Origin: a virus
Virus record (IMG/VR): IMGVR_UViG_3300025598_000152
Location: 1 to 26,102 of that record
Direction: 5' to 3' (one strand)
Length of the DNA: 26,102 nt
Shown piece by piece: positions 6,501-25,738 of this stretch. The notes beneath the pieces are model-generated. The model made no database searches. It was not told the origin of the DNA and saw nothing but the letters and a program-made list of their open reading frames with translations. Position numbers and translations under genes: made by a program. How positions within the stretch are numbered: the first letter of the stretch is position 1; every line of letters starts with the position of its first letter.

Positions 6501-9134
6501 TTAAGCTTGTGATTCTTGCCAAGACAAACGAGCAAAAGCAGTTCCGTTGGAACCAACCTGACTGACCGTTACATACAAGATGTCTGGACCATCGGGGTAG
6601 GTACCCGCTTGGCTTGTCGGCACTGAGTTGGACAATCCACCACCTAGTGCAGCGTTACCGAACGGAGCAACTGAGGTCAAGTCCAAAGTTGTCTGCCCCG
6701 CGGTGTTGGTAAAGAACGCAGCGATTGACTCACCACCACTAATCGTAGTTGCAGTATTGGTGTTGGTTGCCACCTGAACGATAGACGTTGTATTAGTACC
6801 GTTTTGTGTTGGTGATGCAAATGCACTGAATCCACTTGTTCCACCAATCACACCGTTCAAAATAAATTGAACTAAGTAACTTGTGGTGGTCAACATAGCA
6901 ATCTCACGCATTTGCAACTGCAAACGGTTGATAATTTCCTTAACACCCAATGTACCAACAGTTCCGTTATCCACTGAAGGAGCAACACGAATAGCCATAA
7001 TAGGTACAGCAGTTGTTCCAGTTGTAGATACCGCTGAAGTCATACCATAGTTGTAAATAGCAGATACGTCTTGCGTAAATCCACCATCCATCACAACAGA
7101 TGAACCCCAATGAGATAACTGAGCTGCTGAATCAGGAGAAGCATACTCAACCGCAACTGGTGCAGTTGCTGAGTAAGTAAACGCTGTTGCAGAAGCACCA
7201 CCAGTTGTACCACGTGTTAATCCAGTCAAAGTGGTAGAAGTTAAACCTGTATATGTGAAGTATTCAATTACACCAGAAGTACCATTTCCAATAATACGAC
7301 CAGTACCACCAGAAGGATTGAATCCAGAGGTGCTTAAAACTGTAAGCGTAGTATCTGTAGTTGCAACACTTGCTGTGATTGTTGTCAATGGCACTATAGT
7401 ATTTTGCTCATAGTGCGAAGGCAAGTTGCCTGAACGCATATAGGCTTGATACTGTATGTTATTGTTTTGGAAACCATAAACATAAATGATCTGACCATTT
7501 GTTGCTCGGAATCCAAACCTAGCTACCCCTGCACCGTACCAAGAATAGTCCATGTAGAACATTTGGACTTTGGTAAGGTCTAAGTTATAGCCTGATGGGT
7601 TAGAAGCAGAGTTTGATCCATCACAAACATCCCACCACTGTGATTGAGGAACTCTTGTCTCCACAACACGAGAAAGTAGTGCATTTGCAATAGTTGCTCC
7701 ACGGTACTCAGGAGTTATATACAACTGTGTATCGCTAGTAATCGTTGTAACACGGTGCGTTTGACCACGAATCACAACATAATCACCAACAACCAACTGA
7801 GTTGTAAACTGAGTATTGGCACCAGTAATCAAAGAACTATTTTGTGTTGCTGTAACAGTACCAGTAATTTGATTTACGCTATTACGCAATACGCAATAAA
7901 GTGTTTGACCATCAAATTGGAAGAAAATACCGTTTTGACTATCAAAGAAACCAATCTTATTGCTTGAACCATACCAAGAATATGGGCTAACGTGTGGGAT
8001 TGCAGGAACGGTACACGTTGCTGGTGTGGCACTTGGCGTGGTCGCAGCGGTATAGGTAAATGTCAACGCTGTTGGTACAGAGACAATCTTAAAAATACCG
8101 TTATATGCAGACTGATCAAACCCTAATACTTGAACATACGTGTTAACTGTCAAGTTATGTGGAGTTTTGCTCGTTACCGTAACAGTTGTACCAGAAGAAG
8201 TAAGTGTCGTAAAAGCAATCTGTGGTTTAAGGATAGTTCCTGTTGAGAACTGAATACCTTTACCTGATTGGTAACGGAAATAACGACGAGTTTGACGGAA
8301 CAACTGTTGATTAGGTACTGAAGCACCCGCTGTAAAGTTGACAGATCCATCATATGCATGTGTATCTACCCATCCAGAAGGACGAGAGTATAAGTTTGTT
8401 TGACCAGCGGTATTTGCAATCGTCGTTGATGGTGTTCCATTGACGTTAGTGAATGTAAATGTCGTAGCACTTGGTGTAGTTGCTACAGTTTGTGAACCAT
8501 TGATTTGTGTTGCTGTAGAAGGTCCTGTCGTACCAGTAATAAAAATTGCTGAGTTAACAGACAATCCATGTGGGAAAGATGTGGTAACAGTTACTGTAGA
8601 ACCTACAAATGTAAACGCTGTTGTGCCAGTTAAAGCAATACCACAACTTGAATATGTATAGCCTTGGTAGCAATATGTTGTTGTAGCAGAGTAGTTATTA
8701 ACTGTAGTAACTGGGTTAGCCACTTGAACAGTAATTGATGTACCCGCAGACACACCCGCTACCACATACGCCCAACCTTGAGCATTGGGGTCAATGGTGT
8801 CTTCAATAAAAAATGGTGTACCTGTTGCAATCGTCACATTTGATGAAAACGTAACCACCAATTGATAGGTATTTGCTTGATTACCAGTAATTGCAGATAC
8901 TGGTAAAGCAGAATTCGGTAAGTAATATAAAGATTGACGATTGTTTTGTAAGGAAACTTGTTCCCACTTGGTGGGTTGTTGTCCATACTCAAAGTCAGTA
9001 TCAATCAAAGATTGAGGAGTTGATACTCTGATTTTGTCTACAGCATCATAAGCACCAGATCTTTGTGCTTGTTGGAGACGTAATTGATTGTCAGAATTTG
9101 ACGTGGGACCAGTATAGACTGAGAGTTCAGACAT
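6501..9134 (-). CDS. Large virion structural protein with repeated beta modules
   Basis: An 877-aa protein with AGGTGA upstream of its ATG. The N-terminus ([20 protein letters not shown], then [20 protein letters not shown]) is mixed helix and resembles structural proteins of environmental phages. Two related beta modules occur near residues 165-240 ([20 protein letters not shown]) and 310-380 ([20 protein letters not shown]), each followed by a TFTFT or TFTYT strand. Around 525-545 is a conserved-looking block, [20 protein letters not shown], seen in large structural or baseplate-type proteins of aquatic phages. The C-terminal third is Ser/Thr-rich. The transcript carries a UUCG hairpin just upstream. 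It is probably a major neck, tail or surface protein, and the exact role is not determined. Confidence 0.65.
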
Positions 9135-11982: not shown

Positions 11983-12513
11983 TTAAGAATTAATAAAAAT
12001 AGATGATTTACGTTGATTTACTATAGCAGGTATAACTTGTAAATTATTTGGGACATGAAAACCAGATACATTCTTTCCATGAAGAGGAATAATATGATCA
12101 ACGTGCCATTGAAATCCAAATAACTTAGTTCGTCTCTGTGCTAACTCGTAAGCTTCTTCAATCATCCACAAATCGTCGGTTGTTAACCAACTTGGAGTTT
12201 GCTTTCTAATAGATGCTCTTCTTTTTGAAGCCATTGCACAAACCTTATGAGGATTTGTTTTTGACCAAATTTTCATGTAACAAACTTTACATAGATCTTT
12301 AGCAAATACTTCAGATGTGCAACCATTAGAAAAACAAACTCCAAATGTAGGATTGCGTTTTACAACAGGTTTTTCAAATTTTGAATTTCTCAAAATTCTA
12401 TTGCGATGTGTAGAACACAATCCCAAACCACGATATTTTGCAGAATTAGAACAACCGTCCGCAGTACACATTAAATGCGATCCTTTGTGTGGTTGTCCTT
12501 TAATTCCACTCAT
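11983..12513 (-). CDS. HNH homing-type endonuclease
   Basis: A 176-aa protein. Two cysteine/histidine zinc knuckles are visible at the N-terminus (Cys16, Cys21, Cys33, His36 and Cys60, Cys65, Cys75, Cys78). The C-terminal HNH nuclease motif follows (FQWHVDHIIPLHGKNVSGFH, then VPNNLQVIP), with the His137-x-Asp139-His140 core and an Asn at 156/157. HNH enzymes of this kind nick or cut DNA and often spread as free-standing homing genes in phage genomes. It interrupts the series of structural genes right after the major capsid gene. It is visibly richer in A and T than its neighbours, with a weak ribosome site, all signs of recent insertion. A packaging role (as for HNH partners of terminase) is less likely because it is far from the terminase genes. 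Confidence 0.85.
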   Translation of the reverse strand: MSGIKGQPHKGSHLMCTADGCSNSAKYRGLGLCSTHRNRILRNSKFEKPVVKRNPTFGVCFSNGCTSEVFAKDLCKVCYMKIWSKTNPHKVCAMASKRRASIRKQTPSWLTTDDLWMIEEAYELAQRRTKLFGFQWHVDHIIPLHGKNVSGFHVPNNLQVIPAIVNQRKSSIFINS

Positions 12514-15587: not shown

Positions 15588-16001
15588 TTACACATATTCC
15601 GCCATTGCTAACGGATCTCCAGTTACCCTAGATATGACTTCATGGTCGTTCAGCATCATAAACAATGCTTTGTCTTCCAATGGATCTTCTCCAGGTACCG
15701 CAACCTCCCACCTATCCCCACCCCACTTAGGGACACGGATGAAATCACCTATCTTTACCCACGAACCCTCCGGCCACGGAGCCATAGTGTCACGGTTACG
15801 ATAGGCAAGTGGACCAATTGCCAGTACTTTTGCGACCATATTTGCCCATTTTTCGGTATCACGAGTTTCCTCTGCCAAAATAATGCCAGATTTGGTCATT
15901 TTCTTTTTAACTCTCTTGAGTTGTACTAATACTCGTCCTCCCAATGGCTCTACACCAGGTTCTACCTCTGGAAAAGCCCATGCCAAGTCTTCTGTACTCA
16001 T
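15588..16001 (-). CDS. GroES-like co-chaperonin
   Basis: A 137-aa protein from the ATG at 16001, chosen because an AGAGGA site precedes it and its ATGA overlaps the upstream stop. A longer reading from 16094 would enter the upstream gene. It aligns by eye with GroES: EPLGGRVLVQLKRVKKKMTK, then SGIILAEETR (the mobile-loop hydrophobic tripeptide, residues 39-42, as in GIVL of GroES), AKVLAIGPLAYRNRD and GSWVKIGDFIRVPKWGGDRW, ending DHEVISRVTGD. GroES caps the GroEL folding chamber. Phages such as T4 (gp31) encode their own version for capsid folding. Placement among portal, scaffold and capsid genes fits that role. It is longer than bacterial GroES (about 97 aa) because of an N-terminal extension and an insertion. 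Confidence 0.75.
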   Translation of the reverse strand: MSTEDLAWAFPEVEPGVEPLGGRVLVQLKRVKKKMTKSGIILAEETRDTEKWANMVAKVLAIGPLAYRNRDTMAPWPEGSWVKIGDFIRVPKWGGDRWEVAVPGEDPLEDKALFMMLNDHEVISRVTGDPLAMAEYV

Positions 16002-16183
16002 TCTTTTTCTTCCTCTTCTAGTTGTTTTTCTATTAAATCTAGGATGTTTTGCAACCCTATGTTTATCCCGACCATGCGTTGATAGGATTCCCAATTGATA
16101 GCGGCACCACTTGCTAATGAAGTACCAATATCACCTTGCATCTCCTTCACCTTCGTGATCAGATCTCCGATAAACTTGCTCAT
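15998..16183 (-). CDS. Small hypothetical protein
   Basis: A 61-aa protein whose ATG overlaps the stop of the 49-aa gene and whose stop overlaps the GroES-like start (both ATGA), so it sits in a tight translational chain. It is mostly helical, with a conserved-looking centre (ASGAAINWESYQRMVGINIG) and a strongly acidic C-terminus (EKQLEEEEKE). I do not recognise a family. Being placed between portal and co-chaperonin genes, it may be a small head-assembly helper, but that is only context. Confidence 0.65.
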   Translation of the reverse strand: MSKFIGDLITKVKEMQGDIGTSLASGAAINWESYQRMVGINIGLQNILDLIEKQLEEEEKE

Positions 16184-25028: not shown

Positions 25029-25238
25029 TCATCCGTTCTGGATTCGCCTCTCCATTCTGCGGATCGTAGCTTTATATTGGTCGTTCTCGTCTTTTAGTAC
25101 CTTTACCTTGGCGTCCAAGTACTTCATTCTGGCACTTACATAATCTAAATAATCATTTATCTTGACAAACTCTACCTCTGCCTTGGTCGGCTCGTCCATT
25201 AACTTCTCTGGCTCTTTCTTCTTTCTTGTTGCCACCAT
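25029..25238 (-). CDS. Small coiled-coil protein upstream of terminase
   Basis: 69 aa from the ATG at 25238, chosen because AAGGAG lies at ideal spacing. A longer in-frame reading to 25310 has no such site. The N-terminus is basic (VATRKKKEPEKLMDEPTKAE), followed by a predicted coiled coil (YLDYVSARMKYLDAKVKVLK, then DENDQYKATIRRMERRIQNG). It stands 41 bases before the small terminase start. It could be a packaging accessory or a DNA-binding regulator, but no family is recognised. Confidence 0.65.
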   Translation of the reverse strand: MVATRKKKEPEKLMDEPTKAEVEFVKINDYLDYVSARMKYLDAKVKVLKDENDQYKATIRRMERRIQNG

Positions 25239-25348
25239 TAACTCCTTGTTATAGTTGGTGGTTGGTACTGATCTCCAACTTGCCAACCGTCCTTGATATC
25301 GGCTCGACATTGGCTCTCACGACTATTGATGCGTATCAGTCTACGCAC
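25238..25348 (-). CDS. Tiny possible ORF overlapping the repeat block
   Basis: A 36-aa reading frame from a GTG at 25348 (MRRLIRINSRESQCRADIKD, then GWQVGDQYQPPTITRS). Its TAA overlaps the ATG of the 69-aa gene (TAATG), and the AAGGAG of that gene lies in its last codons, the usual layout of coupled phage genes. The peptide looks protein-like, but the start has no clear ribosome site, and the second repeat copy lies directly upstream. It may be the remnant of a longer gene. Confidence 0.35.
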   Translation of the reverse strand: MRRLIRINSRESQCRADIKDGWQVGDQYQPPTITRS

Positions 25349-25452
25349 TCACCAACAAGAATGAGGACTGTTACCCGTTTTTCACAGAGCAGGATACCTG
25401 CATCTCTCACAATCCCCATACCTGTTAGTTGTTGGTGTCCTGCCTTGAACAT
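25336..25452 (-). CDS. Possible tiny ORF inside the repeat block
   Basis: A 38-aa frame from ATG 25452 (MFKAGHQQLTGMGIVRDAGI, then LLCEKRVTVLILVGECVD). It has no convincing ribosome site and lies fully inside the structured repeat block, so it may be chance. The part TVLILVG is coded by the repeat and recurs in the plus-one extension of the upstream gene. Listed only because the stretch holds no firmer gene. Confidence 0.2.
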   Translation of the reverse strand: MFKAGHQQLTGMGIVRDAGILLCEKRVTVLILVGECVD

Positions 25453-25493
25453 TAACGCAGGTTACCAGTCTCAGGCTTTCGCCACACCAACAA
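25429..25493 (-). ncRNA. Candidate structured element (three-way junction) in repeat copy 1
   Basis: Read on the minus strand, TTGTTGGTGT (25493-25484) pairs perfectly over ten bases with ACACCAACAA (25438-25429). Directly inside is the hairpin GGC-GAAA-GCC (25483-25474), a GNRA tetraloop. Directly inside the other side is CCTGC with GCAGG (25461-25457 and 25443-25439). The helices abut without gaps, except for a 12-base linker. Repeat copy 2 has the same entry strand, pairing seven bases with 25254-25260, and a hairpin TGCGTA-GACTGA-TACGCA at 25330-25347. No named RNA family was recognised. Confidence 0.4.
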
Positions 25494-25543
25494 GAATGAG
25501 GACTAGATCTTCGTCACCTTGTGCACAGGCTTCTCCCCAATCC

Positions 25544-25738
25544 TCATACTTCTTGATACTTTAGTACTTCTTTTATATCATCCACACATTTTTGATTTGC
25601 CACCCAGTATAAGACTGGTTGCATTGCGTTTGGCATATAGAATTTTACCACGACTGAGTCACCAATGAGCAGATTTTGAAAGCCTTTTGCCCCTTCCTCA
25701 GTCTCAAATATGCCACCTATCATCGGTATTTCCTTCAT
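25544..25738 (-). CDS. Small hypothetical protein
   Basis: A 64-aa protein with GGAGAA upstream and an ATGA overlap with the previous stop. It begins MKEIPMIGGIFETEEGAKGF and continues QNLLIGDSVVVKFYMPNAMQ, PVLYWVANQKCVDDIKEVLK. It looks like a compact alpha/beta protein with no known family. After its TGA an open plus-one frame continues for 24 codons (down to 25471), so the end may be altered by a frameshift. Confidence 0.6.
   Translation of the reverse strand: MKEIPMIGGIFETEEGAKGFQNLLIGDSVVVKFYMPNAMQPVLYWVANQKCVDDIKEVLKYQEV

Follow-up and report, generated by a model that had tools for sequence, protein, structure and literature searches.

What is the repeated block that lies just upstream of the terminase genes of this virus? 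The window, i.e., the whole 26,102-nt stretch of DNA that was analysed, carries near its right end, on the minus strand, two small ORFs, the block, a 69-aa ORF, terS and terL, in this order. A sequence-only reading had placed the block about 250-560 bases before the small terminase gene, preferred a packaging site (pac or cos) and listed a structured RNA or decayed short genes as alternatives. The distance is 252-560 nt, as measured from the start, 24987, of the Sf6-type terS (24987-24475, minus strand). The 69-aa ORF between them has a weak, below-cut-off match to DUF6284, and its orthologue occupies the same position in MW202545, without an array. Elsewhere on the minus strand, the window encodes a phage GroES-like protein (15588-16094; Cpn10, PF00166, E = 6e-8) amid structural genes; a 176-aa ORF between capsid-region genes (11983-12513) looks HNH endonuclease-like by eye and had no Pfam match at the threshold applied.

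On the minus (coding) strand, the block consists of two tandem structured-RNA units (25552-25250). In each unit, an A hairpin with the stem AUGRGGAUU/AGUCCUCAU precedes a B hairpin with the stem GUUGGUG/CACCAAC, and the module order is A1-Bgamma-A4-Bbeta (Table 1). The perfect 20-mer, AGTCCTCATTCTTGTTGGTG, which was said to occur twice, 135 nt apart, within a longer similar unit, was located in both minus-strand copies (25504-25485 and 25369-25350) with this spacing, and it is the constant A-B junction. Its end, TCCTCAT, pairs with ATGAGGA (25547-25541) in copy 1 and with ATGGGGA (25419-25413) in copy 2; thus, the change from A-U to G-U had been described correctly. However, the extent of the repeat had been understated: the A stem comprises 9 bp and an outer helix beyond a U-U mismatch, and a second hairpin, GUUGGUG...CACCAAC, follows every A hairpin, with exact matches at 25491-25431 and 25356-25254. 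The minus-strand fold of 25247-25552 has z = -4.4, none of 100 shuffles being equally stable, and its minimum-energy structure contains the A stems and the GUUGGUG/CACCAAC helix.

Table 1. Features of the array in the window and of the ORF downstream of it
Feature	Position	Strand	Evidence or occurrence
Whole array, two A-B units, A1-Bgamma-A4-Bbeta	25250..25552	-	grammar common to many contigs; fold z -4.4
A1 stem, 5' arm ATGAGGATT	25539..25547	-	sequence; pairing covaries in relatives
A1 variable module, 34 nt	25505..25538	-	module recurs in 22 contigs, on differing stems
Junction copy 1: A stem 3' arm AGTCCTCAT, B stem 5' arm GTTGGTG (25491-25485)	25485..25504	-	exact, 29 contigs
Bgamma variable module with GGCGAAAGCC hairpin	25438..25484	-	found in L002, L011, L021 beside different A modules
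B stem 1, 3' arm CACCAAC	25431..25437	-	pattern match 25431-25491
A4 stem, 5' arm ATGGGGATT, G-U variant	25411..25419	-	sequence; G-U pairing retained
A4 variable module, 41 nt	25370..25410	-	family also in L001, L010, L019, L040, L070
Junction copy 2; B stem 5' arm at 25356-25350	25350..25369	-	20-mer repeat
Bbeta hairpin 1 GCGTAGACTGATACGC; loop ACTGAT 25340-25335	25331..25346	-	covariation
Bbeta hairpin 2 GTTGGAGATCAGTACCAAC; loop ATCAGT 25272-25267	25261..25279	-	kissing loop with hairpin 1 loop; compensatory change
B stem 2, 3' arm CACCAAC	25254..25260	-	paired 100% across 11 sequences
Downstream 69-aa ORF; array fills its upstream gap	25029..25238	-	ORF list

Pairing was analysed in three sets of homologous modules. 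For the A stem, the interior of the module was the sole criterion for selecting 12 sequences; pairing holds in 97.4% of cells, two-sided changes occur in three pairs, one pair is seen as AU, CG and UA, and no shuffle reached the score. For Bbeta, the set comprised 11 sequences of lake-phage and isolate origin; 98.3% are paired, with double changes in 8 of the 22 pairs, the loop-loop helix included. For example, the kissing loop is ACUGAU/AUCAGU in the window and GCUGAU/AUCAGC in most others, a compensatory G-C to A-U change compared to enterobacterial phages; because the search patterns fix most of both loops, loop pairs that do not vary are uninformative and the varying pairs count. For Balpha (124 distinct copies, selected by the two loops of this module), the first four pairs of P2 are paired in 99%, 97%, 81% and 76% of copies, versus the expected 60%, 59%, 44% and 38%; one pair of P3 is 100% paired and occurs in all four Watson-Crick types, and the outer stem of at least 7 bp is formed in 97%, compared to 25% with shuffled partners. 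Since copies are related by descent, these figures are not formal probabilities. The G-U pairs and compensatory changes are of the RNA type, on one strand, and the unpaired loops are conserved. The A stem, Bbeta and Balpha all covary, and the structured-RNA alternative is strongly supported by covariation. Decayed protein-coding genes, the other alternative, were rejected: the module lengths share no common frame and base pairs are conserved instead.

A search for the 20-mer in other phages had been suggested. Our scan of 2.9 million viral contigs (IMG/VR) found it, exact, in 29 other contigs, far beyond chance, and in all of them it joins variable modules, i.e., its role is invariably that of a linker. 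The following grammar was found: linker 2 (CAACARCUAACAAGUAUGAGGAUU), an A module, the junction (AGUCCUCAUUCUUGUUGGUG), a B module, CACCAACA, and linker 2 again, repeating. The linkers are the stems beneath the modules. Longer arrays include three A modules (L009) or four linker-2/junction pairs (L004). A scan for Balpha (GGKTTAGCKCC...CTGCTTTATG) matched at least 120 contigs; a second linker lineage (ACACGCAUGGGGAUU / AGUCCCCAGCCGUGUUGG) has the same architecture in many contigs among the Balpha matches listed, and a third (CAACAGGUAAGAGCAUU / AGUGCUCUUUCCGUUGUGG) is found in cultured enterobacterial phages. In the loci analysed, a purpose-written scan detected 111 A hairpins at 82 loci, with 74 distinct modules in about 45 families of 26-85 nt; the background was 6 matches on reversed sequence versus 117. 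The linker of the enterobacterial phages contains CACAACA (L202:1433-1450; lambda, L207:990-1010), which in the array lies within a predicted stem; CACAACA is the GcvB R1-seed target motif reported in the phage anti-sRNA AgvB (PMC4104026).

Cultured phages with the same architecture include Bas80, HK620 and Magnus, and homologues are present in the laboratory phages lambda, BASEL Bas77-80 and HK620. The link to isolates was made with a short junction-plus-Bbeta query at a permissive E-value limit and then confirmed by sequence reading; no array was recovered among phage isolates when the window block or a lake-type array served directly as the blastn query. At least part of the Bas80 segment is matched by 497 phage records; of the 5426 complete E. 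coli genomes, 359 have such a match. None of the records inspected annotates an RNA at the array. About 2 kb in the Klebsiella phage Magnus (L203:600-2700) and in St11Ph5 (L211:890-2770) apparently holds many hairpin modules; annotation there is sparse or doubtful, parts of the Magnus segment being tiny hypothetical proteins. The linker pair was unmatched in plasmids. As to a chromosomal origin, a relaxed-junction genome scan gave 14 matches, by inspection in coding-like sequence of scattered phyla, and in 369 genomes of one class the A-hairpin pattern had no match and the Bbeta pattern had two isolated matches with two mismatches; since such patterns cover only part of the linker lineages, other prophage copies may still exist.

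Comparison of close relatives revealed how the arrays change. In relatives of the window phage, ten differing arrays are flanked by the same genes. For example, L008 and L014 have flanks that are 98.7% and 96.3% identical, and their best array match is 28 nt; for L011 and L014 the flanks are 96.5% and 97.0% identical and the best array match is 25 nt. The flanks of the window and of L009 are ~91% identical, and the inner modules differ. The A1 module itself sits on both AUGAGGA/UCCUCAU and AAGAAGA/UCUUCUU stems. Thus, near-total replacement of modules at one locus occurs between phages with 96-99% identical flanks; exchange via homologous recombination at the constant stems would be the simplest reading.

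Arrays were found in tRNA clusters (as in phiSUSP1), before a cro-like gene, in lambdoid late leaders, between tail genes and, in Tyrion, near the terminase, and tRNA genes are frequent neighbours. In lambda, a single A hairpin lies directly after tR' and before gene S, whereas HK620 has a longer array between the annotated pR' and tQ. The Bas80 array runs against the tail genes next to it, has a promoter-like site and is followed by tRNA-Met; that of STGO-35-1 also opposes its neighbours and only a tRNA follows. The L196 array opens an apparent early transcript ahead of the cro-like gene. The arrays of the window, lambda and many lake phages are upstream of genes of the same direction, although the orientation census relied on a crude ORF caller and is indicative only. 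No clear promoter adjoins the array on the minus strand of the window. The array is considered accessory because the A and B signatures are absent from HK022 and the array is absent from the terS-upstream region of MW202545, where terL is 63% identical and the order small gene-terS-terL is the same. Sub-threshold matches to the int-alpA RNA (34.1 and 29.5 bits; cut-off 35.8) lie a few hundred bases downstream of the arrays in L188 (4742-4816) and L196 (5440-5506). Immediately after the L059 array, ARAGORN called a tRNA-like gene (7257-7334) with an odd anticodon (catc, tRNA-???), and L063, L069 and L070 contain a similar sequence.

Some modules resemble parts of the translation machinery. T-arm-like hairpins number 14, versus 0.18 in shuffles, and belong mostly to one module family. 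A module of enterobacterial phages contains a tmRNA-like messenger part (L202:1284-1350, L203:1234-1300, L205:1239-1305, L209:1494-1560, L210:1495-1560), with the tag ANDDVVLMAA or ANEEMYLAVA; the tags vary among phages, and the frame and stop are kept. Rfam tmRNA_permuted aligns the resume-codon and tag region, with a score below the curated threshold, and ARAGORN called no tmRNA in any tested locus. Both T-arm-like and tmRNA-like modules are absent from the window array.

The analysis shows paired stems, a kissing loop, a modular grammar, a spread over unrelated phages and modules replaced almost entirely between near-identical phages; these features are best explained by a minus-strand non-coding RNA of alternating A and B modules on constant stems. 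Going from this observed structure and shuffling to function, we infer, with middling confidence in the reading as a whole, an accessory RNA that acts mainly in trans and engages the translation/tRNA machinery. The constant stems would be shared sockets and, at the same time, patches of homology where recombination would swap entire modules between phages, and each phage would draw its string of self-contained RNA domains from a shared pool. Such a moron-like RNA may bind or mimic parts of the host translation/tRNA machinery, and the fast turnover of modules may result from an arms race against factors or defences of the host. Action in trans is suggested because the Bas80 array opposes the genes around it, the HK620 array lies between pR' and tQ, and arrays occur in tRNA clusters; the link to translation is suggested by the enriched T-arm-like hairpins, the tmRNA-like tags and the tRNA neighbours. 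The tags, the hairpins and the contexts therefore favour, as a hypothesis, a trans RNA engaging this machinery or its enemies.

It should be noted that arrays often precede co-directional genes, which is compatible with a cis role as well. The array could thus be a leader acting on its own transcript, as a put-like antiterminator, a stabiliser against RNase or a control of processing or translation downstream; we consider this rather unlikely, yet it is the strongest rival. The window, lambda and many lake arrays have the orientation that it predicts, the L196 array begins an apparent early transcript, and the lambda hairpin is placed just after tR'; however, the Bas80 and STGO-35-1 arrays run against their neighbours, with only a tRNA to follow, and such diverse swapping domains are not obviously needed in a leader. 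HK022 is the phage known for put RNAs; it is without the array signature, and identity with the HK022 put antiterminator RNA was rejected as no A/B signature is shared.

The mosaic content of modules, the near-inverted-repeat linkers and the many locations would also be expected of selfish or neutral cassettes, hairpin units that spread by easy DNA hairpin or repeat recombination with no benefit for the phage, similar to integron attC sites or REP/MITE-like repeats. This appears improbable given the RNA-type G-U pairs and one-strand compensatory changes, the conserved unpaired loops with their loop-loop helix, the always alternating A-B order, as opposed to scattered single insertions, and the retention of arrays in compact phage genomes. 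An architectural role, in which the modules form a large RNA particle or scaffold comparable to the ROOL and GOLLD cages, is more improbable still: a large folded phage RNA with kissing loops near tRNAs is compatible with it, whereas ROOL and GOLLD were unmatched in the Rfam scans, and composition and length vary freely among phages.

The pac/cos site, with repeated terminase-binding sites upstream of terS, agrees with the position of the block in the window, with close relatives that are arranged likewise and with the terminase-proximal array of Tyrion. This preferred reading of the earlier analysis found no support and is very improbable: arrays of other phages occupy many contexts far from the terminase, none is present beside the 63%-identical terL of MW202545 in the same gene order, and near-identical phages replace the array content almost completely. 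A guide or antitoxin array processed for a protein partner (TIGR-Tas, type III toxin-antitoxin) is hardly credible: RNA units in tandem that combine constant with variable parts are shared with such systems, but the modules are folded, 26-85 nt long and common to several phages, not 9-nt guides, the neighbouring ORFs tested match no TIGR-Tas or toxin protein, and Rfam ToxI was unmatched in the window and 8 loci.

For the exchangeable-module RNA, we tentatively extend the proposal to many tailed phages, including lambda, which may share an open RNA-level cassette platform with domains acting in trans on translation, tRNA biology or defence. If so, it would be an RNA counterpart of protein anti-defence islands; if trans-acting, the arrays would provide phages with a fast-evolving RNA arsenal, and if cis-acting, they would still account for large unannotated gaps in phage genomes. 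Because laboratory phages have homologues and matches occur in so many E. coli genomes, this overlooked RNA class is immediately testable.

With Rfam 15 in gathering mode, the window and 8 related loci gave no match at threshold; in E-value mode, only adjacent tRNAs passed in 17 further loci, tmRNA and int-alpA being sub-threshold. A known RNA family was therefore rejected for the scanned loci, where only adjacent tRNAs exceeded the cut-offs. None of the ROOL, GOLLD, OLE, ToxI and YrlA models exceeded its curated cut-off in the window and 8 loci, and the single weak YrlA match overlaps a tRNA. We found no description of the array in the open-access literature that was searched, so that its novelty is provisional. 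Each of the nearest ideas (tmRNA, YrlA, ROOL/GOLLD, TIGR, type III antitoxins) breaks down at a defining feature that was tested or lacks an above-threshold match, and, to our knowledge, a cassette-like exchange of structured RNA domains on a constant frame of helices has not been described.

The enterobacterial module resembles tmRNA (SsrA, including tmRNA_permuted and alpha_tmRNA) in its pseudoknot-like stretch, its putative resume region AUAAAUGCAAACGA and a short tag that closes with Ala and a stop; in contrast to tmRNA, it scores under the Rfam cut-off and no tRNA-like domain was found. YrlA, a bacterial Y RNA known from bacteria and phages, is likewise modular, with tRNA-mimicking parts and tRNA genes nearby, but is not known to have a constant A/B frame that carries exchangeable domains. 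ToxI, the type III antitoxin, consists of near-identical tandem pseudoknots before a ToxN-type toxin gene, whereas the array modules differ from each other and the genes downstream of the window array are a small ORF and the terminase, not a ToxN-type toxin. AgvB and AsxR are Hfq-bound RNAs of 51-60 nt from convergent sRNA genes of lambdoid prophages (PMC4104026), and they are phage RNAs located near the same late-leader site; identity was rejected, as these genes are convergent and short while the arrays follow the late-leader direction. TIGR arrays are also phage-borne tandem RNAs in which constant parts alternate with variable ones, with two kinds in each unit; however, the TIGR spacers are guides of 9-12 nt, accompanied by box C/D motifs and a protein with a Nop domain (PMC12045711), compared to folded domains of 26-85 nt here. 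Nine ORFs of the window, which is a partial genome, were scanned, and neither the five that adjoin the array nor the other four encode a Nop-domain Tas protein. Finally, ROOL, GOLLD and OLE, two of which are phage-linked, are large folded RNAs without a protein-coding role (PMC12286853), as is the array; each of them has one fixed architecture, whereas the array is a changing string of domains.
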